From Bacteroides uniformis (GTDB lineage Bacteria > Bacteroidota > Bacteroidia > Bacteroidales > Bacteroidaceae), in contig NZ_CP102263.1 of assembly GCF_025147485.1 (NCBI RefSeq), forward strand, positions 3,175,501 through 3,239,500: 64,000 bases of DNA. Reading direction: 5' to 3'. The position numbers and the translations under genes were made by a program. Below the pieces are notes generated by a model. It was not told the origin of the DNA, did no database searches, and was given only the letters and a program-made list of their open reading frames with translations. Shown here piece by piece: positions 7,339-26,716 of this stretch (its first letter is position 1; each line of letters opens with the position of its first letter).

Positions 7339-7376
7339 TCTCTATTTTCATATATTGTACGCGTACATTATATAAA

Positions 7377-7679: not shown

Positions 7680-7740
7680 AAACACTTGTTTTTTATGGAT
7701 GCAGGGCTGGATAACCCCGCATCCGGTTATTAATAATTGG

Positions 7741-8873: not shown

Positions 8874-8875
8874 CC

Positions 8876-9649
8876 CTATTGAATCAGTTCCAGTATCTCA
8901 TCAATAATCTCGTTCAGGTTGCTGCCCCTCACCAGTGCCTTGTCCGCCGGAAAGATAGTCGAGCGGAACAGCGCCTTGTGCCCGGCGGACAACTCCCGCC
9001 GGAACCGCTTGCTGTCCGGCAGGAAAGTCTTCAGTACCGACAACCCCAAGTCACGGATCACCTCCTCATACACATCGTACAGTTCCGACTTCTCCCGTCC
9101 GTCCACCATGTTCCAGAGCAGGTGCATCCCTTGGATTTTCGACTTCCCCGTAGTAATCAGCGTATCGTTCAGCACCACCACGAAGCGGAGCGTGCTCTCC
9201 ATCACCACCCGGTCAGCCGATATAGGGGAGAAGATATAGTCCATCCGTGCCAGTGTGCGCACCACGCCGCCGTTGTTGATAGTTCCCGGCAGGTCAAAGA
9301 AGATAAAGTCAAAGTCCGTGTCCGCCAGTTCTGCAGCTCTCGTCACCGCATCCTCCGGTGTGCTCTCGATCACCGGATACGCCTTCTTTTTCAGTCGTTG
9401 CACCTGCTCGTATGCCATCCGCTTGTAGTACGGATCGTCCATTGCCATTTTCAGGTCACGTTCCCGCATCTCCACGATGCTGTGTTGCGGATAGTCACAG
9501 TCCACCACGGCAACATTATAATCCATTACATAGTGCAGGTAACTTGCCACCAATACGGTCAGCGTTGTTTTACCGGCTCCTCCCTTTTGGGTGGAGAAAG
9601 CGATGTACTTCGGTTCCTTTTTCATACGTTCAATTTTTAAATCGTTCAT
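8876..9649 (-). CDS. traA: ParA-family ATPase TraA
   Basis: A 257-residue (or 249 from the second Met at 9625) MinD/ParA ATPase. The deviant Walker A QKGGAGKTT lies at about residues 21-29, Walker A' VVDCDYPQ near 48-55 and the FIFFDLPG switch near 113-120. It is the first gene of the tra operon, as in other Bacteroides conjugative elements. ParA proteins position DNA or protein cargo on the nucleoid; here it may help segregate or localise the excised ICE together with the DUF3408 partner downstream. The upstream 600 bases hold the oriT region. Confidence 0.92.
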   Translation of the reverse strand: MNDLKIERMKKEPKYIAFSTQKGGAGKTTLTVLVASYLHYVMDYNVAVVDCDYPQHSIVEMRERDLKMAMDDPYYKRMAYEQVQRLKKKAYPVIESTPEDAVTRAAELADTDFDFIFFDLPGTINNGGVVRTLARMDYIFSPISADRVVMESTLRFVVVLNDTLITTGKSKIQGMHLLWNMVDGREKSELYDVYEEVIRDLGLSVLKTFLPDSKRFRRELSAGHKALFRSTIFPADKALVRGSNLNEIIDEILELIQ

Positions 9650-9935
9650 TATTCAATTCATTATCTCAATATTTCCTTATCTCTTTACGTCATCCTTTCC
9701 CTGTTTCCGTGTAGCATTGCATCACCACTGTACCGTTTCATCATGGAAGAACTTCTCCGTTTCACCACTGACGAACTTCATCATTTCCATACGTCAGTAC
9801 GACAATGCTTCACTACAACAGCACGTCAGTACATCACCATTGGAGAACATCACCGCCTCACTGTTTCCGTGCCTCAAAAGAATGGCAGCGCAAATAAACG
9901 ACTAATTGAACTCCCCTGTATCACTTTGAAAATCA

Positions 9936-9974
9936 GTGGCATCAACTGGCACCAAAGTGGCACCGAGTGGCACC
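9936..9974 (+). repeat. 39-bp GTGGC iteron array, copy B
   Basis: Four units with TGGC cores starting at 9937, 9947, 9958 and 9968 (spacing 10, 11, 10 bp). It lies in the non-coding gap between traA and mobA, about 95 bases before the first oriT-like hairpin. The last unit is followed by GTTACGGG, close to GTTACCGG after copy A. The position suggests a partition or relaxosome accessory site. Confidence 0.75.
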
Positions 9975-10069
9975 GTTACGGGTTCTTCCGCCCGTTTCCG
10001 TCCCCCTAACTTTGCATCGTTAAGCAGTCCGGGTTGCAACCGCCGCCCTTGCCGTCTGTCGCTAACCCT

Positions 10070-10166
10070 AATCTGACCGGGTACGGTCAGATTTTTATGT
10101 TCACCCGAACATAGCAAGCTGTGTTTTTTGCTGCACGAAACAAGTTCTGCCGCAAAAAACGCTTGC
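10070..10166. other. Candidate oriT: three consecutive inverted repeats
   Basis: Three hairpins lie directly upstream of the mob genes. The first is a perfect 9-bp inverted repeat (AATCTGACC / GGTCAGATT, 10070-10093) followed by Ts. The second is ATGTTC-accc-GAACAT (10097-10112). The third is a 15-bp pair, GCAAGC plus GTTTTTTGC at 10114-10131 with a 3-base bulge, against 10152-10166. Clustered inverted repeats beside relaxase genes are typical of origins of transfer. The nick site is not identifiable by eye. The first hairpin could also end leftward or rightward transcripts. The rest of the 9650-10284 gap shows no gene apart from the iteron array. Confidence 0.5.
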
Positions 10167-10284
10167 CCCTTTTCCGATGGAGAAAGGGGAACAATTACCT
10201 CCGAAGTCGGTAATTGTGGGGAGAGAGTGGCAGGGCGTAGCTACTCCGCCGGGCTGTCATTGTACCACTAAAAAAATCGTATGT

Positions 10285-10716
10285 ATGAATGATGAAAAAG
10301 AAAAAAGCCGCCGCAAGGGTGGCAGAAATCACAAGACCAACCCCGCCGTTTACCGCTACACGGTCAACTTCGATGCCGTCGAACACGCCCGTTTCCTTAC
10401 ACTTTTCGAGCAGTCCGGCTTGCGCTCTATGGCACAGTTCATTGCCGCCCGTGTCTTCTCCGAAGAATTTCGGGTAGTCCGTACCGACCGTGCCGCGCTC
10501 GAATACGTCGCCAAGCTCACCGCATTGTACCAGCAGTTCCGTGCCGTGGGCGTCAATTACAATCAGGCGGTGAAGGAACTCCACGTCCATTTCTCCGAGA
10601 AAAAAGCCCTCGCCATGCTTTACCGATTGGAGAAATCCACACTGGAACTGATAGAGTTGAGCCGTAAGATTGTCGAACTGTCCAATACCTTTGAGAGCCG
10701 ATGGTTGCGAAAATAA
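10285..10716 (+). CDS. mobA: Mobilization protein MobA (relaxosome accessory)
   Basis: A 143-residue basic protein from the ATG at 10285 (MNDEKEKSRRKGGRNHK), chosen over the upstream ATG at 10177 because the intervening codons look non-coding. The centre resembles a ribbon-helix-helix/MobC-type accessory protein: FDAVEHARFLTLFEQSGLRSM, then a helical region with GVNYNQAVKEL, a motif common in relaxosome proteins. It overlaps mobB by 16 bases. Its likely task is to bind oriT and help the relaxase nick. Confidence 0.85.
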   Translation: MNDEKEKSRRKGGRNHKTNPAVYRYTVNFDAVEHARFLTLFEQSGLRSMAQFIAARVFSEEFRVVRTDRAALEYVAKLTALYQQFRAVGVNYNQAVKELHVHFSEKKALAMLYRLEKSTLELIELSRKIVELSNTFESRWLRK

Positions 10717-11957
10717 GTACCGGACAATCCCTTTACGGTGCCCTTGCCTACAACCAGGACAAGGTGGACGAAGGTCATGCCCGTGTGCTTGCCGCCAATC
10801 TCGTCCTGCAACCCGAAGACGGGCAGTTCCGCATCGGCGACTGCATGGACGACTTCCGGCGGTGGATGCCGTCCCACTACCGGACGGAGAAGCCCGTTAT
10901 CCACATCTCCCTCAATCCGCACCCCGACGACGTGCTCACCGACGAACAGCTCACGGCCATCGGCGAAGAATACATGCGTAAATTGGGATATGGCGACCAG
11001 CCCTATCTGATTTTCAAGCACGAGGACATCGAGCGCAGGCACATCCATATCGTCAGCCTCCGGGTGGACAGCACCGGCAGGAAGATCAACGACAGCAACG
11101 AGTACCGCCGCAGCAAGGCAATCACCGAAGAACTGGAACAGAAGTACAACCTCCATCCGGCGGAAGGACAGAAACAGGGCGACGACTGGCAGCTCACCGC
11201 CGTGGACAGCAGCAAAGGCAACCTGAAAAAACAGATCGCCAATGTAGTGAAACCCCTCTTGAAGATGTACCGCTTCCAGTCCGTGGGCGAGTTCCGAGCC
11301 TTGCTTTCCCTGTACAACATAAGTATGGACGAAGTCAAAGGCGAAGTCGACGGCCGCCCTTACCACGGCATCGTGTACTCCGCATTGGACAAGGACGGCG
11401 AAAAGACCGGCACACCGATCAAGTCCTCCGTCCTCGGCAAGACCACCGGCATTGCCGCCATCGAAAAACAGATGCAGCAGTCCGCCACGGCAATCCGGGA
11501 CAAGCAGCTCAAAGAGCGTACCCGCCGCATCGTTTCCGCCGCCATGCAGCGCACCCGGACAGAGTCCGCTTTCCGCAGGGAACTCTCCGCACAGGGCATC
11601 GACCTCGTATTGCGTCGCAACGAAGACCACCGTATCTATGGCGTTACCTTCATCGACCACCATAGCCGGGTAGTCCTGAACGGCTCCCGTCTGGGCAAAG
11701 ACTTCTCCGCGAATGTCTTCAACGAATATTTCAGCAGCGGAGAGGAACCGCAACCGCAGCAGGAACAGCCAACCGTCACCGGCAACCATACCGGACAGCG
11801 ACCATCAGCAGATACTCGCACCGGTACGACTGCCGCAACATCCGCCGACGGCGGTCTGCTTTCCCTTTTCTCTCCCGACCCCGTACTGCCCGACCGCGAG
11901 CCTCCGCTTCCCCGGAAGCGCAGGAAGAAGCGTCGCCGTTACGGACGTCAGGACTAA
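10701..11957 (+). CDS. mobB: Relaxase MobB (MobP-type, HUH)
   Basis: A 418-residue relaxase. The N-terminal 150 residues show the relaxase fold: an early KISTGQSLYGALAYNQDKV segment, HISLNPHPDD near residue 71-80, and the metal-binding HIHIVSLRVD block near 112-121 (HUH-like HxH). The C-terminal part is helical and basic and ends in a run of Arg/Lys. It should nick one strand at oriT and stay covalently attached through a Tyr. It is coupled to mobA by overlap and followed by mobC after 42 bases. Confidence 0.93.
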   Translation: MVAKISTGQSLYGALAYNQDKVDEGHARVLAANLVLQPEDGQFRIGDCMDDFRRWMPSHYRTEKPVIHISLNPHPDDVLTDEQLTAIGEEYMRKLGYGDQPYLIFKHEDIERRHIHIVSLRVDSTGRKINDSNEYRRSKAITEELEQKYNLHPAEGQKQGDDWQLTAVDSSKGNLKKQIANVVKPLLKMYRFQSVGEFRALLSLYNISMDEVKGEVDGRPYHGIVYSALDKDGEKTGTPIKSSVLGKTTGIAAIEKQMQQSATAIRDKQLKERTRRIVSAAMQRTRTESAFRRELSAQGIDLVLRRNEDHRIYGVTFIDHHSRVVLNGSRLGKDFSANVFNEYFSSGEEPQPQQEQPTVTGNHTGQRPSADTRTGTTAATSADGGLLSLFSPDPVLPDREPPLPRKRRKKRRRYGRQD

Positions 11958-11999
11958 CCCCATAACATATTGTATCACACTATTAAAATTCAAAATATT

Positions 12000-14015
12000 A
12001 TGTCACAAGAAGATGATTTAAGAGGATTGGCACGGGTGATGGATTTCATGCGTGCGTTGAGTATTCTGTTTGTAATAATCAATATCTATTGGTACTGTTA
12101 CCCCGCCATCAAGGAATGGGGGATAAACATCGGAGTGGTGGACAAGATACTGCTCAACTTCCACCGCACCGCCGGGCTGTTCACCTGGTCGCTCTACACC
12201 AAACTCTTTTGTGTGGTGTTCCTTGCCCTTTCCTGCATCGGCACCAAAGGAGTGAAAGAAGAAAAGATAAAATGGGTACATATAGGAGCAGTCCTTTCCG
12301 TGGGCTTTGTACTGTTCTTTTTCAACTGGTGGTTACTGGACATGCCCGTGTCGTTTGTCGTCCGCACCGCGTTCTATATCCTCACCCTTACCGTCGGCTA
12401 CCTCTGCCTTTTGGCGGCAGGCATCTGGATCAGCCGCTTGCTGAAGAACAACCTGCTCGATGACGTTTTCAATAATGAAAACGAGAGCTTCATGCAGGAA
12501 ACCCGGCTCATGGAAAATGAATATTCCGTCAATCTCCGCACCCGTTTCTTCTACAAGAAGAAATGGAACGACGGATGGATCAATGTTGTCAACGTTTTTC
12601 GTGCGAGCATCGTATTAGGAACACCGGGCAGCGGCAAATCCTTCGCCGTGGTCAATTCCTACATCAAACAGCAGATTGAAAAAGGCTTCGCGATGTTCAT
12701 CTACGACTTCAAGTTTCCCGACCTTACCACCATTGCCTACAACCACCTGCTCACCCATCAGGACGGCTACAAGGTCAAGCCGCAGTTCTACATCATCAAC
12801 TTCGACGACCCCAGCCGCAGCCACCGGTGCAATCCGCTGAACGCCCGGTTCATGACCGACATCTCCGATGCCTACGAAAGTTCGTACAATATCATGTTGA
12901 ACCTCAACCGTTCATGGGCGGCAAAGCAGGGCGACTTCTTCGTCGAATCGCCCACCATCCTGTTTGCCGCCATCATCTGGTTCCTCCGCATCTACAAGGA
13001 CGGACGGTACTGCACTTTCCCCCATGCCGTCGAGTTTCTCAACAAGCCCTACGAGCAGATTTTCCCCATCATGTCCTCTTATCCTGAATTGGAGAACTAC
13101 CTCAGTCCCTTCCTCGACGCATGGCTCGCCGGAGCCGCCGACCAGCTCATGGGGCAGATTGCATCCGCCAAAATTCCCTTGTCCCGTATGATTTCCCCCG
13201 CCTTGTATTGGGTCATGTCCGCCGACGAGTTCACCCTTGACATCAACAACCCCGATGCACCCAAAGTCCTCTGCATCGGCAACAACCCCAACCGGCAGGC
13301 AATTTACGGTGCCGCTTTGGGACTTTACAACAGCCGTATCATTAAGTTGGTCAATAAGAAAGGAATGTTGAAGAGTTCCATCATCATCGACGAGCTTCCC
13401 ACCATTTTCATCAAAGGGTTGGACAATCTGATAGCCACCGCCCGAAGCAACAAAGTCGCCGTACTTTTGGGCTTTCAGGACTTCTCCCAGCTCATCCGCG
13501 ACTATACCGACAAGGAGGCGAAAGTAATCATCAATACCGTCGGCAATCTCTTTTCCGGGCAGGTTGTCGGTGAAACCGCCAAGACGTTAAGTGAGCGTTT
13601 CGGCAAGATATTACAGAAACGGCAGAGCATGACCATCAACCGCAATGACAAGTCCACCTCCATCTCCACCCAGATGGACAGCATGATACCGCCCAGCAAG
13701 ATTTCCGGGCTGACGCAGGGCATGTTTGTCGGTTCCGTCGCCGACAACTTCTCCGAGCGCATCGAGCAGAAGATTTTCCATTGCGAGATAGTGGTGGATG
13801 CCGCTAAGATAGCCGAGGAAGAGAAGAGTTATCAGAAAATCCCCGTTATCACCAACTTCGTGGATGACAACGGAGTCGATCACATGCAGGAGATGGTACA
13901 GGCTAATTACAACCAAATCAAAGAAGATGTCCGGCAGATTGTCGCCGATGAATTGGAGCGTATCAAGAACGATCCCGCCCTCTGCCATCTGTTGGAATTG
14001 GGTAAGAAGGACTAA
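12000..14015 (+). CDS. mobC: Type IV coupling ATPase MobC (VirD4/TraG family)
   Basis: The start at 12000 (MSQEDDLRGLARVMDF) gives 671 residues. Several hydrophobic helices fill the first 150 residues, then the cytoplasmic motor domain follows with P-loop GTPGSGKSFAV near residue 212, a Walker B-like SSIIIDELPT near 463 and the QDFSQL motif near 496. This is the VirD4-like coupling protein that brings the relaxase-DNA complex to the mating pore. The mobABC order is usual for these ICEs. Confidence 0.94.
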   Translation: MSQEDDLRGLARVMDFMRALSILFVIINIYWYCYPAIKEWGINIGVVDKILLNFHRTAGLFTWSLYTKLFCVVFLALSCIGTKGVKEEKIKWVHIGAVLSVGFVLFFFNWWLLDMPVSFVVRTAFYILTLTVGYLCLLAAGIWISRLLKNNLLDDVFNNENESFMQETRLMENEYSVNLRTRFFYKKKWNDGWINVVNVFRASIVLGTPGSGKSFAVVNSYIKQQIEKGFAMFIYDFKFPDLTTIAYNHLLTHQDGYKVKPQFYIINFDDPSRSHRCNPLNARFMTDISDAYESSYNIMLNLNRSWAAKQGDFFVESPTILFAAIIWFLRIYKDGRYCTFPHAVEFLNKPYEQIFPIMSSYPELENYLSPFLDAWLAGAADQLMGQIASAKIPLSRMISPALYWVMSADEFTLDINNPDAPKVLCIGNNPNRQAIYGAALGLYNSRIIKLVNKKGMLKSSIIIDELPTIFIKGLDNLIATARSNKVAVLLGFQDFSQLIRDYTDKEAKVIINTVGNLFSGQVVGETAKTLSERFGKILQKRQSMTINRNDKSTSISTQMDSMIPPSKISGLTQGMFVGSVADNFSERIEQKIFHCEIVVDAAKIAEEEKSYQKIPVITNFVDDNGVDHMQEMVQANYNQIKEDVRQIVADELERIKNDPALCHLLELGKKD

Positions 14016-14751: not shown

Positions 14752-15609
14752 TTATTGCCCATGTTTTTTCCGCAGGTTCGTTGGGCTGTCGCCGAGGTTC
14801 GCCTTGCAGAAACGGTAGAATTGCTGGGGCGAGGCGAAGTTGAACTCCTCTATGATGTCATGGAAGGGGATATAGGGGAAAGAGAGCCGGTACAGGATAT
14901 GTTCCGAGCGTTTCTTCAGCAGCCATTGATAGACCGCCGTTCCGAACTCCTCCTTGAAGATACGCCGGAAGGTCGTTATTCCGTAGCCGCATAGGTCGGC
15001 AAGTTCCTGCGTGTCGTTGGCTTTCATGTAGTGCGCCAGTACGAGGCTCTTGAACGGCACCTCTTCCCCCGTCATCGGGTGGAAGAAGGCTTGCAGCTCT
15101 TCCGGTGTATAGTAGCGGCTGAACAGCCGGATCAGTTCCTTATGTTTCAGGTGCCATAGCTGTATATCCTCCGTGCCGTCCGTCAGATAATGGCGGATGC
15201 TTTCCATGAACAGCACGATAGCCTCGTGTGCCGGTAGCTTGCAGCAATAGGTGGTGGGGTTGCCGCCCTCTTCCTTCTTTTTGTGCGTGTACAGGTAGTT
15301 CAGTATGCAGTTTTCCGGACGGCAGACCGTGTTGTTGAAGGTATGGATCACCGCATGGGTATCTTCCAGTATCTCTCCCTGGCAGTCAGCCATGCGGGGT
15401 AGGAACAGGATGTCGCCCCCGTGCAGCATTTCTTTGCGGAACAGGCTGCTTGTCAGCCGTACTTCACCTTTCTGGCAGAATACGATGTAATTCATACCCT
15501 TGTCCGTATTGCTGAATGTTTCCCCTTTCCGGAAACTTCTCAATAGGAAATTACAGTTGTCCGGCGTTTCGTTGCAGGGCAGGTGATGATAGGTTTTCGT
15601 TTCATTCAT
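14752..15609 (-). CDS. AraC-family regulator at the end of the DGR operon
   Basis: 285 residues from the ATG at 15609 (MNETKTYHHLP). The frame is open further upstream but would overlap the previous gene. The N-terminal part looks like a cupin sensing domain (FCQKGEVRLTSSLFRKEMLHGGDILFLPR). The C-terminal 100 residues form the two-HTH AraC domain, ending with SPQQFYRFCKANLGDSPTNLRK. It is only 23 bases after the MutS-like gene, so it may be co-transcribed with the DGR. It may control the fimbrial-DGR operon or the ICE; ligand unknown. Confidence 0.82.
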   Translation of the reverse strand: MNETKTYHHLPCNETPDNCNFLLRSFRKGETFSNTDKGMNYIVFCQKGEVRLTSSLFRKEMLHGGDILFLPRMADCQGEILEDTHAVIHTFNNTVCRPENCILNYLYTHKKKEEGGNPTTYCCKLPAHEAIVLFMESIRHYLTDGTEDIQLWHLKHKELIRLFSRYYTPEELQAFFHPMTGEEVPFKSLVLAHYMKANDTQELADLCGYGITTFRRIFKEEFGTAVYQWLLKKRSEHILYRLSFPYIPFHDIIEEFNFASPQQFYRFCKANLGDSPTNLRKKHGQ

Positions 15610-15632: not shown

Positions 15633-16091
15633 TTATTTGTTTTTCAGTTCTTTCTGGATGCCTGCCAGAAAGTTCAGTGCATCCAGTGGAGTGGTACACG
15701 ACAAGTCGTAGTCCATTATTTTCCGTTCCCATTCACGGGTGGGATTCTCCGGGACGGTTTTCTTCGTGTCTGCCGGTATGTCGTCTATCAGCGTGGCGTC
15801 TTCCGTGGCGTCCAGCCCCGCAAACTCCACCCATGTGTCCGTTTTCGCCAGTACCTTGCCGCCAGCCGCCGCAATGCGTTCCGCCACCGTCGGCAGGCTG
15901 TCCGCCGGGAATCCGGCGACCAGCACCTCCCGTCCGCCTTTCCTTGCCTTGCGCTTCACCCGGTAGTGCATCAGCCGTGCCAGTGCAAATGCGCCCGCAT
16001 CGTAGGCATGGAAGAACATGCCCACTTTCATCAGATAGAGGGTTTCGTTGCCGCCCTCTTCCTGCTTCCTTATCAGTTCTTGTTCCGTCAT
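15633..16091 (-). CDS. MutS-like accessory protein of the DGR
   Basis: A 152-residue protein from the ATG at 16091 (MTEQELIRKQEEGGN). The stretch LYLMKVGMFFHAYDAGAFALARLMHYRV is like the mismatch-recognition N-terminal domain of MutS (KxGxFFExYdxDA) but lacks the rest of MutS. Stand-alone MutS-like proteins are a known accessory class of diversity-generating retroelements. The start overlaps the reverse transcriptase stop by ATGA, so the two are translationally coupled. It may act in template recognition or in handling mismatches during cDNA integration; this is inference. Confidence 0.78.
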   Translation of the reverse strand: MTEQELIRKQEEGGNETLYLMKVGMFFHAYDAGAFALARLMHYRVKRKARKGGREVLVAGFPADSLPTVAERIAAAGGKVLAKTDTWVEFAGLDATEDATLIDDIPADTKKTVPENPTREWERKIMDYDLSCTTPLDALNFLAGIQKELKNK

Positions 16092-17377
16092 ACGGCTTCT
16101 TTCCTTATCAATTGATAACTTACGATTTCCCGCCGCATCTCCCGGCGCAGGCGGGCACGTGCGGTATATCGCTTTTTCAGCACCGTCTTTTCCAGATGTC
16201 CAGACACATACATCACCTTCCACCATTGCGGGGCGATGCCGCCTTCCAATAACAGCTTTTTCCGGATGTTATAGGTGGCGAAGTGCTTCATCTGTCCTAA
16301 GTACGAATTTACCGACGCCACGAACTGCTCGCCGTGCGTTTCCACATATCCCGGTTCTTGTGCCAGATGGTTGTAGTGCGCCAGCGTGTCACGGAAATAC
16401 CCCACCGTGCGGTTGCTGATGTACGTCCGTCCCGGTTTCACCACGCCGCCGATATATGGGATGCCCTTACTGTAATGTTGCAGGTACATCTTCCGGGGAT
16501 GCAGGGTCAGCCCGTTTGCCGCCAGCCATTCGCGGATGCGCTTACGCCTCTCCAGCAGGTATTCCTTGCTGGTATGCACCAGTGCCATGTCGTCCACATA
16601 CCGCCCGTAGAACGGTATGCCCCACAGCTCCGTAATCAGGTGGTCGAGCGGGCTCAGGAAGAAATTCCCCGACATCTGGCTCGTCAGGTTGCCGATGGGC
16701 AGCCCGTGCATCCCGTCCGAATGGAACAGGCTCTTGTCCCGTGGCAACCCTTTCCAGTGGCTCGCGGGACAGCGGCGGATGCAGTTCTTCTCCGGCCGGT
16801 TGAAGATCGTTTCGCGCAGCAGGTAGAGTAGCATCTCCAGGTCGTTCGCCCGGTAGGTTTCCCGCAGAAACTTCTCCATCCGCTCGTAAAGTAGCTTCTT
16901 GTGTATATCCATGAAGAACGAGCGGACGTCGAGCTTCATCACGTAGCAGTCCTTGGTGTAGTTCTCCGAACATTCCCGGACAAATTCCTCTACCCGGCGG
17001 ATGCCGTACAGTGTCCCTTTTTCTTTGCGGGTGCTGTAGCTGTCGTCTATAAATTCCGCTTCCAGCAGCGGCTCTATCTTGCGGGCGATCAGGTGGTGTA
17101 CCACCCGGTCGCGGAAGTCGGCGGCGAATACTTCCCGCTGCACCGGCTTGAATACAATGAAGGCGACAGAGCGGGAAGGCTTGTAGGTTCCGGCGTTGAT
17201 TTCACGCCACAACCGGATGCACTTCCGCTCATAGTCCGCCTCGAAGGCAAGGGCGTTATGCGTCCCCCGTTTCTTGCGACGGCAGGCGAAGTAAGCCTCA
17301 AAGACTTCCTCCAACGAGATGCCGCCCGTTTCTTCGGGAGCGAATAAGCTGTTTGTTTCCATTTTTTTTTGTTTCAT
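16088..17377 (-). CDS. DGR reverse transcriptase
   Basis: From the ATG at 17377 (or 17362) the protein has 429 (424) residues. The RT palm is complete: a SYSTRKEKGTLYGIRRVEEF block, KLDVRSFFMDI (first catalytic Asp), GLPIGNLTSQ, and the catalytic YVDD in FYGRYVDDMALVH. The LPIGNLTSQ motif, in place of the QGxxxSP motif of other RTs, is the signature of DGR reverse transcriptases. The frame is open upstream through the template repeat without a stop. The gene lies just downstream of the template repeat on the same strand, the standard DGR order. It copies TR RNA with adenine-specific errors, and the cDNA replaces the variable repeat of the lipoprotein gene at 18091-19644. Confidence 0.96.
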   Translation of the reverse strand: MKQKKMETNSLFAPEETGGISLEEVFEAYFACRRKKRGTHNALAFEADYERKCIRLWREINAGTYKPSRSVAFIVFKPVQREVFAADFRDRVVHHLIARKIEPLLEAEFIDDSYSTRKEKGTLYGIRRVEEFVRECSENYTKDCYVMKLDVRSFFMDIHKKLLYERMEKFLRETYRANDLEMLLYLLRETIFNRPEKNCIRRCPASHWKGLPRDKSLFHSDGMHGLPIGNLTSQMSGNFFLSPLDHLITELWGIPFYGRYVDDMALVHTSKEYLLERRKRIREWLAANGLTLHPRKMYLQHYSKGIPYIGGVVKPGRTYISNRTVGYFRDTLAHYNHLAQEPGYVETHGEQFVASVNSYLGQMKHFATYNIRKKLLLEGGIAPQWWKVMYVSGHLEKTVLKKRYTARARLRREMRREIVSYQLIRKEAV

Positions 17378-17389
17378 AGGTTTTAATGT

Positions 17390-17520
17390 AAAAGCCAAAG
17401 AAGAACGAACCCTATTGTTGTTGTCGTTGTTCTTATTGTCGTTGTTCACGTTGCCGTTGTTGAAATTCACGTACCACGCGTTGTTCGCCGGATTGTTGTT
17501 GTTCTCCGAACTCGACCAAT
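17390..17520 (-). repeat. DGR template repeat (TR)
   Basis: 131 bp aligned without gaps to the variable repeat at 18094-18224 (constant offset of 704). In the sense direction it is a string of AAC/AAT codons inside conserved flanks, so it would code an Asn-rich version of the target's C-terminus. There are 24 differences from the VR: 23 are at TR adenines and one at a TR guanine (17425). The 3' 25 bases in sense, up to the last codons coding RSSLAF, are identical to the VR and match the role of an initiation-of-homing segment. Confidence 0.95.
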
Positions 17521-17646
17521 TATTGTTATCAGTTTTGTCTTTACAAGAAGTCCACTTCCTGTCGATAACCCTTTTTCATTTTAAAACCGGCTCTCTCCGG
17601 TAAGCCTTGACCGACCGGACTCACGCCACAAAAAATATGCTTGCCT

Positions 17647-18021
17647 TTATCTTCTGTTCTGTTCATTGTTTTGTTTTCCTTTCTCATTATATTGTTTCCA
17701 TCCCGTGGCTTGTTTCCCTATCTTTTCCATTTCAAGGGCAAACACTGCCACCTTTTTGGTATCTATCACCTTTTGTTCGGCACACACCCGGAGCAGCATC
17801 TGCAACATACCGAATTTTCCGAGAAATTCCCGAAGCGGTTCCGTTTTCTCGTAGCTGCTGTTCGCTTTATAGAGCAACATCGACATATCCAGACACACAT
17901 CTACCATCCTTGTCCCCAAACTATATTTATAGAATCGGGGAAAGTCCTGCGTGGCACGGATCAGCATGTTCAATAACCGGTACGTGGCGCGGTAAATAGG
18001 TAATTCTTCGGTCAGAGCCAT
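17647..18021 (-). CDS. avd: DGR accessory variability determinant (Avd-like)
   Basis: A 124-residue all-helical protein with a basic C-terminus. The opening ELPIYRATYRLLNMLIRATQDFPRFYKYSLG is characteristic of Avd/S23-like four-helix bundles, which form a pentameric barrel that binds the DGR reverse transcriptase and RNA. It lies between the target gene and the template repeat, the usual place. It probably recruits TR RNA to the RT. Confidence 0.92.
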   Translation of the reverse strand: MALTEELPIYRATYRLLNMLIRATQDFPRFYKYSLGTRMVDVCLDMSMLLYKANSSYEKTEPLREFLGKFGMLQMLLRVCAEQKVIDTKKVAVFALEMEKIGKQATGWKQYNEKGKQNNEQNRR

Positions 18022-18036
18022 AAAAAAATAGTGCGA

Positions 18037-18049
18037 CCCGCTTCGCGGG
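18037..18049. other. GC-rich hairpin downstream of the variable repeat
   Basis: CCCGC-TTC-GCGGG, a 5-bp stem with a 3-base loop, lies 44 bp beyond the 3' end of the VR (sense direction) and just before avd. Well-studied DGRs have a hairpin or cruciform at this position that raises the efficiency of homing. No copy is found after the TR. It may also act as a weak terminator between target and avd. Confidence 0.55.
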
Positions 18050-18090
18050 ATTGATTTTAATAGATAAATAGTCTAAATTGATAAATAAGA

Positions 18091-19644
18091 TCAAAAAGCC
18101 AAAGAAGAACGAACCCTACGGTTGTTGCGGTCGCGCTTACGGTCGTCGTACACGTAGCCGCCGTCGAAACCCACGTACCACGCGTAGCCCGCCGGATAGT
18201 AGTCGCTCTCCGAACTCGACCAATAGTAGCTCTGCCATCCATTTCCTCCGACTTTCTGCATACTTGTCAATAATAGGTCTCTATTTTTATACCAATACCA
18301 GCACTGACCGGCAGAAGGCAAAAACCAACCACTACTATTGCTGGGAGAAGGATAACTCTGTTCGTAACCTTCCGAGGCATAATAAGCGGCAGGGAAATCT
18401 TTCTGTAGAGTTTTACCGGCATTTGCAGCGACATACTCTTTTATCTTCTGCGTATTGCTGTAACCACAAAAAAGGGTGTACTGCGCTTGGTCAGTATGTA
18501 TTTCTTCACCGTAAGAACCCCACGCACAAGTATTTCCACTATTACCATCTTTTAAGGCAAGAACATAACCATGAATGATACCCATCTCTGTTGTTCCGTC
18601 TTTTAGCTTGTAGATGTCTTCATCTTTCCAATCACCGCTATCATCTTTACCGACTTTCAGCACGATACCAAGGCAAGCTGCCTGCTGGTCTGCGGTAAGG
18701 GAAGCGATCTCACCGGGAATCAGATAACCTTCGTTACTATTGTTCTTGCAATAAAAATCGCCCACTTGAGCATTGGCAAGGCTATACGATCCGGCATTTA
18801 CCCTCTGCGTGGAGCTGTATCGGGTATTTGCACCTGCCAATGATACCGTCAAATCCTTACTGTATGTCTTATTATCACAGGTATAGAAACAACGTACGCT
18901 ACTATTCGTTAAGCCGGAACGAAGAATACACCGGTAACTACCGTCGGCCGCCTTATATGGATAGACAATTTCATCATCCATTAAGAAGTTCACATCAGAG
19001 ATGGCTGGAGACGGATGAACAAAATCATCACCGTTATCCAATGTATAATGCACTTCCGGCAAAAGGGAAACAGAATTATAGGCATGGGTCAGGGTGGCGG
19101 CAAGTGTCTTTTGCGGAGCAATACCGGCTGTAGATTGCCATATCATCAGGTCGGAAGCACGGTAGTCGGCTTCTGACTGCTGGTCTGCTTTGGGAATGAA
19201 TTTACTCTTCAAACCGCCATCGCCTTCAATAGAGGTAACATCGTTGGCATCGGTGCTATACGGGAAATAAACGATATAGGTGACATTCGTTGCCTTGTTG
19301 TCGTAATAATATACGCTCTTGCCGGTGCCTTCGCTGTTTACCGTAGCTGCATCGAAAGACCAACTGCCGCCATTGTATTTATAGGGAAGGTTGTTGCCTT
19401 TCAACGTACCGTCCTCCAATACGATGACGCCTACACGGTCACCGTTCTCGAAAGTGGTGGCTGCGCCATTATCGGTGGCACGGGTGCCGGAAGCGCTACT
19501 ATCGGTTATAAAGCCTCCTGCGCTCACTGTCAGTTCCAAAGCAGGGCAGGGCTGCTGCGCTACGGCAGGCAACTCTTCGTCACTGCTGCAAGCGCAAAGC
19601 AGGGCGAGGGAAAGAAAGAGATATATTTGTTTCATCTTCATCAT
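18091..19644 (-). CDS. DGR-diversified surface lipoprotein (pilus tip/adhesin candidate)
   Basis: A 517-residue lipoprotein: signal MMKMKQIYLFLSLALL with L-C-A-C lipobox, a fimbrillin-like N-terminal region (TVSAGGFITDSSASGTRATD, the FimA/Mfa1-type start), and a C-terminal domain with GWFLPSAGQCWYWY and YYWSSSES that is FISUMP/C-type-lectin-like. The last 43 codons are the variable repeat, whose Asn-derived sites now code S, D, Y, G and R. The fixed end RVRSSLAF is shared with the TR. In DGR targets of this fold the variable residues form a ligand-binding face. As the distal gene of a fimbrial operon it is likely a tip adhesin. It is 11 bases downstream of another FISUMP lipoprotein. Confidence 0.93.
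   Translation of the reverse strand: MMKMKQIYLFLSLALLCACSSDEELPAVAQQPCPALELTVSAGGFITDSSASGTRATDNGAATTFENGDRVGVIVLEDGTLKGNNLPYKYNGGSWSFDAATVNSEGTGKSVYYYDNKATNVTYIVYFPYSTDANDVTSIEGDGGLKSKFIPKADQQSEADYRASDLMIWQSTAGIAPQKTLAATLTHAYNSVSLLPEVHYTLDNGDDFVHPSPAISDVNFLMDDEIVYPYKAADGSYRCILRSGLTNSSVRCFYTCDNKTYSKDLTVSLAGANTRYSSTQRVNAGSYSLANAQVGDFYCKNNSNEGYLIPGEIASLTADQQAACLGIVLKVGKDDSGDWKDEDIYKLKDGTTEMGIIHGYVLALKDGNSGNTCAWGSYGEEIHTDQAQYTLFCGYSNTQKIKEYVAANAGKTLQKDFPAAYYASEGYEQSYPSPSNSSGWFLPSAGQCWYWYKNRDLLLTSMQKVGGNGWQSYYWSSSESDYYPAGYAWYVGFDGGYVYDDRKRDRNNRRVRSSLAF
18094..18224 (-). repeat. DGR variable repeat (VR)
   Basis: Occupies the last 131 bp of the lipoprotein gene up to its stop codon (18091-18093). 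Compared with the TR, 17 residues differ and 16 of these derive from Asn codons; the remaining one is GAC to CGC, which includes the only non-adenine change. The shared flanks code WSSSE at one end and RVRSSLAF at the other. Confidence 0.95.
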
Positions 19645-19655: not shown

Positions 19656-21572
19656 TTAAAAGGTTAATATGGCACGGACATAAGATACTCGCAGATAGCC
19701 ATTATCACTTTTTGCATAACTGCCGGAACCGCTGCCGTTAAATTGATAATACCATGCGTCATATTCGTTCTTTTCCGTCGAAGACCAATAACGGCCGTTG
19801 TTATCCGTGGTCTTGAAATCAGTACCTCCGGCTCCTTGAAACAAACCGGTACGGTTATTCATGCTATAAATGTCATTGAGCTGACCGATGGAAGGCAGGT
19901 ACCAGCCACTGGTATTGGCAGGAGAAATCGCGCTGTACCCGGATGCAACCTTAAATGCCCAATACTGACCATCGGCTGTAGGGCTGTTTACATCGGTACT
20001 CTTATATGCTTTCAGCAAACGGACAATGGCGGTATTGCTGTAACCGTCATACTTATTGACATAAGACCCCTCATCAGTCAATCCGTCCACATTGGTCAAT
20101 CGTATTCCCCAGGCACCTGCATTGTCATTCGCATCGTTCAATGCAACCACATAGCCGTGAATGGTATTATCCATAAAGAAGAAATTATAGTTGCCTACAT
20201 TATCTCCTGCTCCGGCACCCACCTTGAAGACAATGCCGATGCAGGGATTGGAGGTATTTGAGGAATATGTACTTGACCATGTACCGTTCGCATAAAAATA
20301 ATCACCTACATTCGGAGAGGCAGGGCTCGTGCCGGCTGCTCCGGCTTCCGCCTGTATGTTGTCCAGCCACAAATCTGAATGGATGTCATAGAATGTATAG
20401 GTATAAGTGCGTGTATCGGCTGTGTATGCTACTTTCTGTTTGCAGATACCGGCAGTTACCTTAGTCAGAAACTTCCTTAGGGTATAACCGTCGTCAGCCG
20501 ACAAGGAAATGTTTATTGCACTGGAAGAAGTTGTATATATGTTATCGTTGGCTGTCAAGGTGGTGCCGTTAGCATCCGTCACTTTATAATCCGATGTATT
20601 TGTCGGTGCAGAGAAATCTGCCAGATGTATTCTGAAAGTGGCTTTCTCCGCATCACCGTCTTTTGCGCTATCATCCTTCCACGAAGCGGTAACCGACTCT
20701 ACTTGCAGTCCCGTTTTCTTCACGGTGATGGTATAGGTATATTGCTTCCCGGCTTCGAGGTTGGCATCGGTGCTGCCTGCGGGGGTATAGAAGTAATTAC
20801 GGGCAGCACCATCTGCGCCGATAGTTACTTTGATAAACTTCTTGCTCTGCATCTGCTGCGGGATAACGAGGGCGGTGTAGGTGGGGGCGCCTCCGCTGGC
20901 TGTTTCCGTTTTCGGGGTGATGTCGCCGTTGCTGCCGCTGCCCGTCATGCCGTTGTAGCCCAAAGAGCCGGCGGTATAGCCCGTAAAGGTGACGGTGGCG
21001 GCGGACAAGTCGTCGTCTGTAATGCCGTCGCCTTTCTTTAGCGTGACCTTCACCTTTGCCAGCGCGTGGCGGAAAGTGAAGGCGACGGGATTGCTGCTAC
21101 TGTATGTATAATCCTGTGCCGGGGCATGAAGGATATTCTCCAAAGCCCCGAAACCGGTATTCTGGTCGGTGATGTCCACTTCACCGCTACCGGTGTTACT
21201 GCCGACGGTGTAACTCACCGGATACCATGCCGCAAGGGTTTCCTGCCGCTTGCTCCAATAGAGGATGTTTCCATCGCCATCGGGAATCATCGCACCGGTG
21301 TTGGCATCGCTTATCTTATACTGTTTATGGTTCGCTCCGCCGTCCATGCTGATGGCTACGGGGTCTTCCGCTTGCCACGTGGTTTTGCCGTTGTTATCCG
21401 TCGTGGCACGCGTAGCGGTCAGCCCGTCCACGCTGGCGGTGAAGGTCATGGGGCATGCGCCGTCGGGCAAGCGGCTGCCGTCGTCAGTATCGTCCGTACA
21501 GCTTGCCGCCGTCAGTGCTGCCATGCAGGCAAAGCACAGGCCGATACCCAAATTCATCATTTTTCTGTTCAT
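19656..21572 (-). CDS. Fimbrillin-like lipoprotein with FISUMP C-terminal domain (not diversified)
   Basis: The start at 21572 (MNRKMMNLGIGLCFACMAAL) gives a lipoprotein signal ending in A-A-S-C and a protein of 638 residues; an upstream Met would add a non-signal-like basic tail. The N-terminal half is fimbrillin-like (ACPMTFTASVDGLTATRATTD, then HALAKVKVTLKKGDG and NYFYTPAGSTDANLEAGKQY). The C-terminal 200 residues carry GWYLPSIGQLNDIYS and YWSSTEKNEYDAWYYQF, a FISUMP/lectin-like domain related to that of the diversified neighbour. Its end does not match the TR at the nucleotide level, so it is not a second DGR target. It is probably a fimbrial adhesin or stalk component. Confidence 0.82.
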   Translation of the reverse strand: MNRKMMNLGIGLCFACMAALTAASCTDDTDDGSRLPDGACPMTFTASVDGLTATRATTDNNGKTTWQAEDPVAISMDGGANHKQYKISDANTGAMIPDGDGNILYWSKRQETLAAWYPVSYTVGSNTGSGEVDITDQNTGFGALENILHAPAQDYTYSSSNPVAFTFRHALAKVKVTLKKGDGITDDDLSAATVTFTGYTAGSLGYNGMTGSGSNGDITPKTETASGGAPTYTALVIPQQMQSKKFIKVTIGADGAARNYFYTPAGSTDANLEAGKQYTYTITVKKTGLQVESVTASWKDDSAKDGDAEKATFRIHLADFSAPTNTSDYKVTDANGTTLTANDNIYTTSSSAINISLSADDGYTLRKFLTKVTAGICKQKVAYTADTRTYTYTFYDIHSDLWLDNIQAEAGAAGTSPASPNVGDYFYANGTWSSTYSSNTSNPCIGIVFKVGAGAGDNVGNYNFFFMDNTIHGYVVALNDANDNAGAWGIRLTNVDGLTDEGSYVNKYDGYSNTAIVRLLKAYKSTDVNSPTADGQYWAFKVASGYSAISPANTSGWYLPSIGQLNDIYSMNNRTGLFQGAGGTDFKTTDNNGRYWSSTEKNEYDAWYYQFNGSGSGSYAKSDNGYLRVSYVRAILTF

Positions 21573-21728
21573 ATTCTTATCATTTTTATTTCTTGTCTTT
21601 CGTCTTTTTCTGTCTCTGTTTATTCTTATCTGCGCCACCGGCAGCGGCGAGGCTGCCAGCGTGCTACCTTATAGGCGGCTCGTTCCGGACGTTAACGCTT
21701 GCGGTGTCCGGCAGTGGCTGTGCGGCGG

Positions 21729-22184
21729 TTATGCCGTCGGGTCTATGACATCTCCTCCGTCACCGGCGGGGTCCTGGTCCTCGGTTTCGGGCGAAAGCTC
21801 TATCCATTCCAGCTCGTCGCTATCCACGAGGGCGCGGGTGTAGGCACCGCTGCTCAGCCGGGTGCGTTCGGGCACGAACTCCACACGCACGGCCTGCACC
21901 TGCTTGTCGAAGTTGAAATCATCAAGGTTTTTCACTCCACGGGTGTCCAGCACGTAGCGGAAGTAGCCCAGCCCCTTGATGTGGACGCTCTTGCCCTGGG
22001 ACATGCGGGTGTGCATCACGCCTGCTATGTCGCCCAGTACGGCCTGGACGTCGGAGTTACTGACGGTGGAAATCTTCGCCAAATCCTTGGCGATGGTTTC
22101 CGTTTCCACGGGTTTGCCCTGCACGATGGCGCGGGGGTAGTAAACCGCTTGTTGTTTGTTAAACATCTTTTTCCAGAATGGCAT
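21729..22184 (-). CDS. HU-family DNA-binding protein
   Basis: 151 residues. The first 115 resemble the HU/IHF (DNABII) fold as modified in Bacteroidales: AKDLAKISTVSNSDVQAVLGDIAG, then KSVHIKGLGYFRYVLDTRGV. The C-terminal tail is acidic and disordered. It sits between the second fimbrillin gene and the FISUMP lipoproteins in the same orientation. Such proteins bend DNA; a role in the DGR region or the ICE is possible but unproven. Confidence 0.8.
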   Translation of the reverse strand: MPFWKKMFNKQQAVYYPRAIVQGKPVETETIAKDLAKISTVSNSDVQAVLGDIAGVMHTRMSQGKSVHIKGLGYFRYVLDTRGVKNLDDFNFDKQVQAVRVEFVPERTRLSSGAYTRALVDSDELEWIELSPETEDQDPAGDGGDVIDPTA

Positions 22185-22351: not shown

Positions 22352-23356
22352 TTAATCCATTACGGCATCGCCGGTCTTTGCACTGACCGGTGTCCAGTCG
22401 CTGATCTCGGAGGTTACCGTCAAGCCACTCTGGTTGACGGTGATTTTGTATTGGTACTTTTTGCCGCTTTCAAACGTAATACCCTCCGCATCGGGGATGC
22501 TGTAGTAGAATTCGCCGCCGGTCGTGAGTGCTACTTTGATGAATTTGGTATTCTGCGTTACTTTTTGCGGCACGATGATGGCGGCGGCATAGGTGGTTCC
22601 GGTGGAGAAATTGTCCGTAGTTATGCTCGTGGCGATGGTAATCGGAGCCGGGTCGTTACTGGACGTTGAGCAAGTGACCAACCCGGCACGGGCAGTTTGT
22701 GCGGTTCCCAGGGTTGAGCTGTTGATTTCAGCAGTCTTGCTGGGGGTAAACTCGGCTTTCAGCTTGGTGTTTTCGATGGTAACGGTCGCATCGGTCAGGT
22801 CGGGATTTCCTGCACCCGACTTCAGAGCCACTTCCACCTTCGACAGCAGATGGTAGAAAGTCAGGTTCACCGCACTTGCGCTGCGGGTCACATCTTTCTT
22901 TAATCCATACAGCAGGTCGGATTTCAGGTAATTGTCGCCAAGGTTTTCGCTTTGGTCAGCGTTCACGGCATGGGTAATTGCTGATGCGGGGAAGGTGCTG
23001 GTATTCTCGGTGAAGGCAGCGAAGTTGCCGTGCATCGCGTAGAAGTTGAGGTTTGCGTTGTCGGTAGGATAATACTGGGAACTGCCGGTAAAAGTGCCGT
23101 CGCCCTGGGCGGTGAGTGTCCATGCCTGGATGTATCCCTCGGAGCCGCCGACTTTGTCCGCCCAGGCGTAAACCGTCTGGCTGTTGGCTATCTGCTTGTC
23201 GGGCACGTCGCTGCTGTTGGCGCGTGTCTGCACGGTTACTCCGCTCGTGAGGCGTATCTCGCCGTTCCAGTTGTCTGTTACCTCGTTCTCGTCGTTGCTG
23301 CAACCTGCCAGTATCATCGTGGCGGCTGCCATTGTCATAAATAACTTTGCTTTCAT
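22352..23356 (-). CDS. Fimbrillin-family lipoprotein (major subunit candidate)
   Basis: 334 residues from the ATG at 23356. The lipoprotein signal MKAKLFMTMAAATMILAGC is clear. The mature protein starts with SNDENEVTDNWNGEIRLTSGV and TVQTRAN, the usual FimA/Mfa1 head, followed by FYHLLSKVEVALKSGAGN and FYYSIPDAEGITFESGKKYQY, blocks common to fimbrillins. It ends in a GLTVTSEISDWTPVSA segment of the kind used as the donor strand. Processed at an Arg by gingipain-like proteases in related species, such proteins polymerise into type V pili. Two fimbrillin genes are in tandem here. Confidence 0.88.
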   Translation of the reverse strand: MKAKLFMTMAAATMILAGCSNDENEVTDNWNGEIRLTSGVTVQTRANSSDVPDKQIANSQTVYAWADKVGGSEGYIQAWTLTAQGDGTFTGSSQYYPTDNANLNFYAMHGNFAAFTENTSTFPASAITHAVNADQSENLGDNYLKSDLLYGLKKDVTRSASAVNLTFYHLLSKVEVALKSGAGNPDLTDATVTIENTKLKAEFTPSKTAEINSSTLGTAQTARAGLVTCSTSSNDPAPITIATSITTDNFSTGTTYAAAIIVPQKVTQNTKFIKVALTTGGEFYYSIPDAEGITFESGKKYQYKITVNQSGLTVTSEISDWTPVSAKTGDAVMD

Positions 23357-23426
23357 TTTTAATTTCTTGTTTATAATACAATACATACGTTTTGGTTATT
23401 TCTTATTGAGTCTGCTTCGCATCCTC

Positions 23427-23561
23427 CATAATCCTCATGTTCGGCATATCCGAAGCAAGCTTCGTCTCTGCCTCGCTTAATCGGATATTCCCTTCGGGCA
23501 TAATCCTCACGCTCGGCATAATTCAAGCAAGCTTGATTCTGCCTCGCTTAATCGGATTATT
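23427..23561. repeat. Pair of 63-bp intercistronic repeats with hairpins
   Basis: Two copies (23427-23489 and 23499-23561, 72 bp apart) of a unit that begins CATAATCCTC and contains CTCGCTTAATCGGAT. Each has a small hairpin: CGAAGC-AA-GCTTCG in one and TCAAGC-AA-GCTTGA in the other, so two base pairs differ but pairing is kept. They fill the gap between the two fimbrillin genes and may stabilise mRNA or set the stoichiometry. Confidence 0.6.
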
Positions 23562-24468
23562 CAGCGTTACCCGTTTCGCCGCCGCCGTTGCCCGGTGTCC
23601 AGTCCTCCACTTTGGAACTGACTTCCACACCGGCTTTACTGATGGTGATGGTGTACAGGTATTTGCTTCCGGCTACAAACGCCTTTGACTGCGCGGCGCT
23701 GTTCACGTCCCAGTGGAACGCTTGACCTTCCAGCCCGGGCACGGTAAACGTCAACGCCATGCCTGCCGTACTCGCCGCGGGCAGCACGATGCCTTCGGCT
23801 TTCAGTCCGTCGGTATGCAGGACGATCTCCTTTGTGGTGCCAGTGGTTACGGTCGCGTCTCCGCCCGTCACCACGTTGTAGGTGGCAGCCGTCTGCTGGT
23901 TGCTGATGCTGACAGTGGTGCCTGCCAAGTCAGCATCCGTCAATGATGTCCCGTCCGCCTTGATGGTGATGTCTAACTTCACTAACTTATGGGTAAAGAC
24001 GAACGCTACTTTCGGGTCAGTCTTGTCCTTGCCCTCCACTTTGGCGGCGCCCATCAGGTCGATGTCCTTCTGCGGGGTCTGAACACTCACATCGACGGTG
24101 TACACGTTGCCGTCCGCCAATGTTTCCCGGTAGGGGTAATAGGCGACAAAGTCGCGCTGTGAGGCATCCACCGGGAAGTAAATGGTTTGTCCTTCGGCAG
24201 CGGTGAAACTTCCGTTTTCCGCCGTCTGGGCGGTGGTGTACTTGCGGTTGCCGTTTCCGTCCGTCGCATCGCCGTTCAGCATATAGATGCCGATGGCGTC
24301 GCCCGCTTCCCAAGTTTTGTCGTAGGCGCGGGTGTTCATCCGGATGCCGCTGGTGGCTTCGAGGGCAACCCGTCCGTCGGTGGGTTGCGGTGTGTTTTCT
24401 CCGTCTTCGCTGCATCCCGGCAACAGGACGGTTGCCAGCAGTGCGCAGATTAATGCTTGCTTTTTCAT
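23557..24468 (-). CDS. Fimbrillin-family lipoprotein (first of the pair)
   Basis: 303 residues with a lipoprotein signal MKKQALICALLATVLLPGC. The mature protein continues SEDGENTPQPTDGRVALEATS and IRMNTRAYDKTWEAGDAIGIYM, a standard fimbrillin start. It has VAFVFTHKLVKLDITIKADG in the middle, and ends with GVEVSSKVEDWTPGNGGGE, comparable to the donor-strand end of the second fimbrillin. It lies 57 bases downstream of the FimB-like gene. It is likely the pilus shaft or an accessory subunit. Confidence 0.88.
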   Translation of the reverse strand: MKKQALICALLATVLLPGCSEDGENTPQPTDGRVALEATSGIRMNTRAYDKTWEAGDAIGIYMLNGDATDGNGNRKYTTAQTAENGSFTAAEGQTIYFPVDASQRDFVAYYPYRETLADGNVYTVDVSVQTPQKDIDLMGAAKVEGKDKTDPKVAFVFTHKLVKLDITIKADGTSLTDADLAGTTVSISNQQTAATYNVVTGGDATVTTGTTKEIVLHTDGLKAEGIVLPAASTAGMALTFTVPGLEGQAFHWDVNSAAQSKAFVAGSKYLYTITISKAGVEVSSKVEDWTPGNGGGETGNAE

Positions 24469-24525: not shown

Positions 24526-25452
24526 TTAATGGATAGTGATATCGCCGTTGTCCACTTCCGTCCAGCCGGTGATGGTGCCGCCCATGCTGCTTGCCGTGGG
24601 CAGGTTGAGCAGGGCATCCAGCGTCAGGGGTTTCCTGTCCGTTCCGCCGAAATCCTTCAGCATTTCAGTCAGGTCTGTACGGATGGTCTGCACGCTGCCG
24701 TCCGTCAGGGTGACGGCGAGGGTGAGCGTCTGCCGTTCGCTGGTTATCACGCCCATCAGCCGGAGCATGGCGGCAAGCGCCGGTTTGCCCTCCGCACGGG
24801 TGGGCGTCACGGTGCCGAACCTGAACTCCGGCGCAACCGTCCGTCCCGTCTGTCCGGCGGTCTGTTCGCCCGTTGTCAGGTCAAGGCTGTGCGCGATGCC
24901 TGTCAACGTGGCGGCGGTTCCGGCGATGCGTTCCTTGTCGCCCTCCGCCAGTTGCAGTGTCAGTGTCAGGCAGCGGATATACTGTTGCATCGGCAGGGTT
25001 ATTTTCAATGTATCGTCAGCCGCCACGTCCAGTTCCTTTCCGGCGGAAAACAGATACCCCGGTTGCGGAGTGAGTGTGCCGTCGTCTTTCGTGTCCACCG
25101 TGGCGGTATTCCCTGTCACGGAAACACCTTCGGGGGTATTGTACGCTAACAACCGGTACGTGCCCGGCGCCAGCAGGCTTTTGAAGGTGTTGGTTTCCGC
25201 CGTCACCTCCTGGCTCTCTTCTCCGATGCGCAGCAGGTAGTTTTCGGGCTGCACGGCTTCTTCCGAGCGTCCCGTCCAGTCGGTGGTTACCCGCACCGCG
25301 CCCTTGTCCGGATGCGGGGTGTTGTGCAGGTCATCTTTCACGCAACTGCCGAATGACTGGCATACGGCTGCAAATATCAGCAGCTTGCAGATGCCGGACA
25401 AATTTATTTTTCGGTTGCCCCTTATCATTTTATGAATGGCTGTTTTCTTCAT
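24526..25452 (-). CDS. FimB/Mfa2-like fimbrial lipoprotein (anchor candidate)
   Basis: 308 residues with a long basic N-terminus followed by a hydrophobic stretch and an F-G-S-C lipobox near residue 36. The mature part (VKDDLHNTPHPDKGAVRVTTDW, then YNTPEGV and LPMQQYIRCLTLTLQLAEG) matches FimB/Mfa2-type proteins, which anchor pili to the outer membrane and limit their length. It precedes the fimbrillin genes, the opposite order from P. gingivalis but common in Bacteroides. DUF5119 may be the right family name; I am not certain. Confidence 0.8.
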   Translation of the reverse strand: MKKTAIHKMIRGNRKINLSGICKLLIFAAVCQSFGSCVKDDLHNTPHPDKGAVRVTTDWTGRSEEAVQPENYLLRIGEESQEVTAETNTFKSLLAPGTYRLLAYNTPEGVSVTGNTATVDTKDDGTLTPQPGYLFSAGKELDVAADDTLKITLPMQQYIRCLTLTLQLAEGDKERIAGTAATLTGIAHSLDLTTGEQTAGQTGRTVAPEFRFGTVTPTRAEGKPALAAMLRLMGVITSERQTLTLAVTLTDGSVQTIRTDLTEMLKDFGGTDRKPLTLDALLNLPTASSMGGTITGWTEVDNGDITIH

Positions 25453-25525: not shown

Positions 25526-26716
25526 TCAATTTACCGACCATACCAGCGTGACGCCAAGTTGGTTGATGCCCCAATGGTTTTTCGTTTGGTTCTCTCCGCG
25601 TACACGCACCCCGTCCGTCACCCGGTATTTGTCATACTCCGCATGGGTATAGCCGATGCCTGCATGGAAATCCAGCGACAGCCGGCTGTTCAGTGGCAGC
25701 GTATAGCCGCCCGTGATGCCACCGCCCTGATAGTCGCCCTGCTTGCCCGTTTCGCCGAGCTTGTAGTTGAACTCGCCGATGTGGTACATCACGCCGAGAT
25801 AGCCCCGTTTCTCCTTATCTATATAATAGCGCACTTCGGGCGATACTTTCCAGAGGGCATATCTTCTGTCTTTGTCGCTCCACGACCACGAAGTCCACGA
25901 GCCGTTTACGAGGATGCCCACGTGACGGTTGACGCGCCATTCGATGCCGAGGTCGGGAGTGAGCGTAGCCCAGCGCAGCAGGTTGGCACGCAGGGCAAAG
26001 GTGTAGGGCTTGGCTTCGGCTGACAGACGTGCCTGCTCTTCGGCTTCAAGGCGTCGGCGTTCGTCCTCTGTCCGGCGTTGTTCCTCCGCTTCGGCAGCCT
26101 TCCGGAGTGCAGCTTCCGCTTCACGGCTCGCGGCGGCTTCGCGGGCGGCAAGTTCCTGTTGTTTCTGTTGTTCGGCGGCAAGCCGGGCATGGGCTTCGGT
26201 TTGTTGCTGTTCCTCAATCTCGCGGTAATAGCTCCGCACCGTCTCGGCGGCTTTCGTTCCGGCAATCCGTTCTATCTTTTCCACACCGGCGGGGAAGGCA
26301 ACCACCACCACTTCCCGCAGGCTGTCGGCGTAGGGAGTGGCAATGCGGCGGTCGGTGACGAACATCTGCTCGGTGATGCCCATGCGCTGTATCAGTTCCG
26401 ATTTCACCCGGCTGCTACGCAGGTAAGCCATCCGTTGTGCCGTTGTCTCATCGTTGCCCGTGGCGGCATAACTGCTCACCGAGATGTACATCCGCCCTGC
26501 ACGCAGGTGGTCGATGTGGGCTTGCAGCACGGCGCAAAGGCGGTTCAACTCCGTCTGGTTGCCGGCGTAGGGCACATAGAACACGTCTTTCCGCGGCACA
26601 AAGCGGAACACAAAGGCGGTATCCGCTGTTGCTGCCGCTTTGTCCTGTGCCTTGCCTGCCAACGCAAGCAATGCGAGCAAGAGGGTAAATCCTGTTCGTT
26701 TCATTCTTCTTATCAT
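25526..26716 (-). CDS. DUF3575 outer-membrane protein, first gene of the fimbrial operon
   Basis: 396 residues from the ATG at 26716 (MIRRMKRTGF; Met6 at 26704 also possible). It has a signal peptide ending near AGKAQ, then a domain of about 110 residues that resembles OmpA-like or Mfa-type N-terminal domains (SSYAATGNDETTAQRMAYLRSSRV). A long Ala/Glu/Arg coiled coil (about residues 180-260) follows, then a C-terminal DUF3575 beta-barrel domain (YTFALRANLLRWATLTPDLGI to GVTLVWSVN). Genes of this type often head Bacteroidales fimbrial operons. The frame remains open upstream through a CA repeat, but that part shows no coding character. Confidence 0.82.
   Translation of the reverse strand: MIRRMKRTGFTLLLALLALAGKAQDKAAATADTAFVFRFVPRKDVFYVPYAGNQTELNRLCAVLQAHIDHLRAGRMYISVSSYAATGNDETTAQRMAYLRSSRVKSELIQRMGITEQMFVTDRRIATPYADSLREVVVVAFPAGVEKIERIAGTKAAETVRSYYREIEEQQQTEAHARLAAEQQKQQELAAREAAASREAEAALRKAAEAEEQRRTEDERRRLEAEEQARLSAEAKPYTFALRANLLRWATLTPDLGIEWRVNRHVGILVNGSWTSWSWSDKDRRYALWKVSPEVRYYIDKEKRGYLGVMYHIGEFNYKLGETGKQGDYQGGGITGGYTLPLNSRLSLDFHAGIGYTHAEYDKYRVTDGVRVRGENQTKNHWGINQLGVTLVWSVN

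Follow-up and report, generated by a model that had tools for sequence, protein, structure and literature searches.

A pilus-tip diversity-generating retroelement with a MutS-like protein, predicted cargo of a conjugative element in Bacteroides uniformis

The locus was analyzed in a stretch of 64,000 nucleotides of the Bacteroides uniformis contig NZ_CP102263.1, hereafter called the window. In window coordinates, its genes and other features are distributed as follows:

2184..14015, no strand assigned: conjugation/mobilisation genes, i.e. TraJ, TraG P-loop ATPase, ParA-like, MobB and coupling protein (profile matches)
14752..15609, minus strand: AraC-type regulator (FtrA-like match far under cut-off)
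15633..16091, minus strand: MSL, a stand-alone MutS domain I protein of 152 aa (MutS_I 3.6e-5); overlaps the stop of the next gene listed by 4 bases
16088..17362, minus strand: reverse transcriptase (RT) of a diversity-generating retroelement (DGR), 424 aa, alternative ATG at 17377 (RVT_1 2e-16; LPIGNLTSQ and YVDD)
17390..17527, minus strand: template repeat, TR (alignment and repeat scan)
17647..18021, minus strand: Avd, 124 aa (Pfam bAvd 2.8e-16)
18037..18049, minus strand: GC-rich hairpin CCCGC-GAA-GCGGG, 44 nt past the variable repeat (hairpin search)
18094..18231, minus strand: variable repeat, VR, the final codons of the target (alignment and repeat scan)
18091..19644, minus strand: target of 517 aa, a predicted pilus tip protein that has a lipobox (fold match 4eps, lipobox, pilus neighbours)
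19656..21638, minus strand: second fimbrillin, with an Lcl_C-like domain under the Pfam cut-off (profile search)
21729..22184, minus strand: HU-related DNA-binding protein amid the pilus genes (NCBIfam HU_rel 3.4e-24)
22352..23386, minus strand: fimbrillin, pilus subunit (Mfa_like_1 2.2e-39)
23557..24468, minus strand: fimbrillin, pilus subunit (Mfa_like_1 2e-53)
24526..25452, minus strand: pilus anchor, Mfa2 family (Mfa2 5.6e-23)
25526..26632, minus strand: DUF3575 protein, head of the pilus genes (Pfam)
52451..52467, plus strand: right end of the element (attR), 17 bp repeating the 3' end of tRNA-Asp (sequence repeat)

The DGR hallmarks that were examined are all found here: a DGR-type RT, an adenine-biased TR/VR pair, Avd, a hairpin on the VR side only, and identical 3' ends of TR and VR. 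The cassette is transcribed in the order target, Avd, TR, RT and MSL, and RT, Avd and MSL are all open frames. The initial annotation had named an RT with LPIGNLTSQ and YVDD, an Avd and a MutS-like protein. Both motifs were found in the translation, and the three profile matches are above the Pfam cut-offs; the NCBIfam model DivGenRetAVD also matches Avd (6.9e-18), under its own cut-off. The solved structure closest to the RT in a PDB comparison is 8ub7 (E 5e-21, titled 'Reverse transcriptase'), which we take to be the BPP-1 DGR enzyme. Within the window no RNA family reached its gathering score and no tRNA gene was detected. A complete system had been claimed at 15633-19644: the DGR parts are indeed there, but the system is wider, because the target is the last of a series of pilus genes extending to about 26.6 kb. 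The earlier reading was thus right about the DGR and missed the pilus genes, the mobile element and the oddity of MSL.

Re-alignment of the two repeats on the minus strand gave the pairing proposed before: 17390-17520 and 18094-18224 align over 131 bp with 0 gaps, and 23 of the 24 differences fall on sense template adenines, the remaining one being G-to-C. The template adenines are changed in VR to G (15), T (5) or C (3). Changes affect 23 of 45 adenines and 85 of 86 non-adenine positions match (Fisher p = 3e-12), so there has been no general divergence between the two repeats. The 16 Asn codons said to have become S, D, Y, G or R codons were all found again when re-read in frame. The full repeat is 138 bp long (17390-17527 and 18094-18231), with 26 adenine and 2 non-adenine differences. 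It exceeds the earlier one by 2-3 codons; three more Asn codons upstream of the 131-bp stretch keep the pattern, with one T-to-C, and the changed template Asn codons then number 19 of 21. At the 3' end the last 25 bp of TR and VR are identical, the IMH feature of DGRs. A repeat scan of 9001-27000, at the settings used, gave no second adenine-biased pair, and a genome-wide search gave no second VR for this TR (next match 39 bp, E 0.025). The second fimbrillin was considered as a second target and rejected: its best ungapped identity to TR is 54/131, against a mean of 51 and a maximum of 57 for shuffled sequences. In four other loci (L040, L094, L098 and L146) two or more TR-like copies accompany a single VR region.

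The hairpin past VR is conserved in a Bacteroides timonensis relative, and unlike the VR side, no hairpin was found after TR within the window. Over 50 DGRs, a hairpin is present past VR in 28 cases (1.4 expected from shuffles) and past TR in 2 cases (0.9 expected). This agrees with the description of the DGR of Bordetella phage BPP-1 in PMC3240598, where 8-bp inverted repeats lie within about 35 bp of VR; here a 5-bp stem is 44 nt away. The BPP-1 system, as outlined in PMC6642488, comprises RT, Avd, TR and VR. It shares these with the present cassette, together with the 3'-terminal position of VR within the target and the hairpin after VR, and differs by a phage tail target and by having no MSL.

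The target is predicted to be a type V pilus tip protein. Its best fold match is 4eps, and we found a lipobox, a fimbrillin domain, a C-terminal domain and adjoining pilus genes; the lipobox Cys19 is invariant in 46 aligned rows.

The limitation of the TR-VR differences to adenines shows past activity of the DGR in this lineage, as the initial annotation had claimed. That annotation had also proposed comparing VRs among isolates or reads; we compared homologous proteins instead, and change is concentrated at template-Asn positions. From the 120 homologues listed, we took 11 targets in which the final 46 residues are still in register with the template; the target of the window is one of them, and two others or more precisely one pair among the 11 are nearly identical. 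They are changed at 187 of 231 template-Asn positions and at 29 of 275 other positions, the latter share being capped at 25% because targets had to reach 75% identity outside the Asn positions to be chosen. Independently of that choice, 230 of the 231 residues at template-Asn positions can be reached from AAY through adenine changes.

Among near-identical relatives, one VR is common to nine homologue entries, which correspond to five different proteins (four pairs differ by their start only), and the printed pairs of this group show 2-8 residue differences outside VR. A second group of five entries has another common VR, and four entries of the two groups carry the source name Phocaeicola sartorii. 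One VR per near-identical group argues against constant activity, and DGR activity may therefore be rare or regulated. The same sharing of VRs would be expected from an old DGR that diversified its VR formerly and is now silent. A relative of the element is found in B. timonensis (L039). Its backbone is 95.8% identical over 8 kb and its RT 91%, the tip gene is different from that of the window and has its own VR, and TR and VR differ at 16 positions of an 80-bp core, all of them A, which speaks for the DGR. The 3' ends of this TR and of the VR beside it have ceased to match; homing should be hindered there, and this also fits a silent DGR. We nevertheless consider a silent DGR unlikely for the window, since RT, Avd and MSL are still open, the non-adenine positions of TR and VR still match, and different proteins in the same register vary at template-Asn positions. 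The arrangement in B. timonensis looks like a swapped target. In L039 (9100-9985) and in L116/L122 of this species the TR-VR match is limited to the core, with an indel of 9-12 bp between them, and at a second site elsewhere both TR ends are present as near-copies, with diverged sequence between the two.

We then considered the surroundings of the cassette. Direct repeats of 17 bp at tRNA-Asp delimit an element of about 62.1 kb: the left copy is inside tRNA-Asp, 9.6 kb before the window, next to an integrase (3166274-3167494 in genome coordinates), and the right copy is attR. With an integrase, conjugation genes and direct repeats at a tRNA, the region has the composition of an integrative and conjugative element, and the DGR cassette is predicted to be its cargo. 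Two PADLOC hits also fall on the element: Gabija-type genes GajA and GajB (window 39473-43010), with GajA in two pieces and GajB shorter than the model, and an AbiL-type pair, AbiLi and AbiLii (46709-49139). DGR or pilus hits were present in 0 of 9 sister loci, within the stretches examined; AraC-type relatives lie near TraG in 3 of these 9. Both sides of the cargo slot are visible in two of them only. In L152 (6974-15564) the slot is filled by what looks, by length and first residues, like an RND-type-pump set with regulators, and in L158 it is nearly empty. Such slots, holding other genes or almost nothing, indicate that the pilus is exchangeable cargo.

The cassette adjoins the conjugation genes here as well as in B. 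timonensis. Pilus and DGR might on this ground serve the element itself, a variable tip choosing the mating partner, a role reported for the PilV shufflon of IncI-type plasmids. The sister loci speak against this: in the stretches examined, all nine are free of DGR and pilus hits, the slot of L152 has other genes and that of L158 almost nothing. We find a role in mating-partner choice very unlikely.

Almost certainly, then, the locus holds a complete DGR carried by a conjugative element at tRNA-Asp, in which RT and Avd would copy TR RNA into adenine-mutated cDNA that replaces VR in the pilus-tip gene. The parts, the adenine-limited differences, the hairpin, the pilus genes and the element ends are read from the sequence; the RNA template, reverse transcription and homing are taken over from known DGR mechanism. 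By analogy, RT with Avd would produce a cDNA mutated at adenines, this cDNA would replace VR, the 3'-terminal part of the tip gene, and template Asn codons (19 of 21 here) would turn into codons for other amino acids of the target's C-terminal domain. MSL might be a helper in homing, possibly one that binds the duplex of cDNA and target at its mismatches.

Systems of this kind are known, and DGRs of pilus tips reportedly spread between species. DGRs of Bacteroides whose targets are the tips of type V pili are the subject of a preprint (Macadangdang et al. 2024, bioRxiv 10.1101/2024.11.15.621889, as cited in PMC12632263), which has DGR, pilus tip target and Bacteroides host in common with ours, so that the present system belongs to a known type. 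That a DGR had been transferred on what may be a conjugative transposon was noted as early as 2012 (PMC3521204). The pilus-tip DGR itself is not new; the unusual part is MSL.

The longest frame of MSL reaches 16226, and the start conserved among relatives is the ATG at 16091. The protein consists of domain I only: MutS domains II-V and the ATPase of the repair protein are absent. With MutS domain I of solved structures (PDB 6i5f, 1ewq, 3thz and others) it shares the fold and the wedge Phe, which all 70 aligned rows have. The Glu of Phe-X-Glu is found in none of the 70; its place is taken by H, K or R in 68 of them, and by T and V once each. In the same comparison MutS proper has Phe-X-Glu in 14 of 14 cases, and the motif is intact in the host MutS of this genome. 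MSL genes sit within DGR cassettes in several gene orders, and RT and MSL are fused into a single protein in one Prevotella MAG, as they are in one protein cluster. In one locus (L101, 6374-6841), an MSL gene has no RT or Avd within 16 kb, and RTs lie on other contigs of that genome. MutS-like (MSL) accessory genes within DGR cassettes, as here, were reportedly described by Wu et al. in NAR in 2018. In journal articles available without subscription, a literature search gave no match for a MutS-like accessory gene of DGRs, which does not imply newness of the motif change or of the fusion.

Two readings of MSL are live. Loss of the Glu and of the ATPase points to a protein that would bind mismatched duplex and be unable to call repair. 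In the other, MSL would have nothing to do with DNA mismatches and would support RT or Avd as a structural partner, or bind the template RNA; the reading of mismatches may have been lost altogether. The RT-MSL fusion fits such a partner. So does the share of changed adenines, for which no increase with MSL was seen (median 0.37 in 17 cassettes with MSL, 0.42 in 31 without, p 0.21). It is not obvious why a simple scaffold should retain the wedge Phe, however, and we hold this second role to be quite possible, if somewhat short of probable. The binder reading can be extended, tentatively and with considerable doubt, to a general proposal: many Bacteroidota DGRs would hold a captured MutS domain, a silent mismatch binder that has no ATPase and has, usually, a basic residue in place of the Glu, which covers the mutated cDNA/VR duplex and keeps host MutS off so that diversity survives repair, and which is fused to the RT in some lineages. 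Two assays in PMC12875486 touch on this. A reporter assay gave the same outcome after loss of mutS, but it was based on an 18-nt insertion, which is no MutS substrate; in another assay mutS was removed to help preserve DGR substitutions.

The element is thus a well-delimited and readable case of mobile DNA that can carry a hypervariable pilus tip from one bacterium to another. The pattern seen in MSL makes it testable whether, and how, mismatches made by DGRs escape the mismatch repair of the host.
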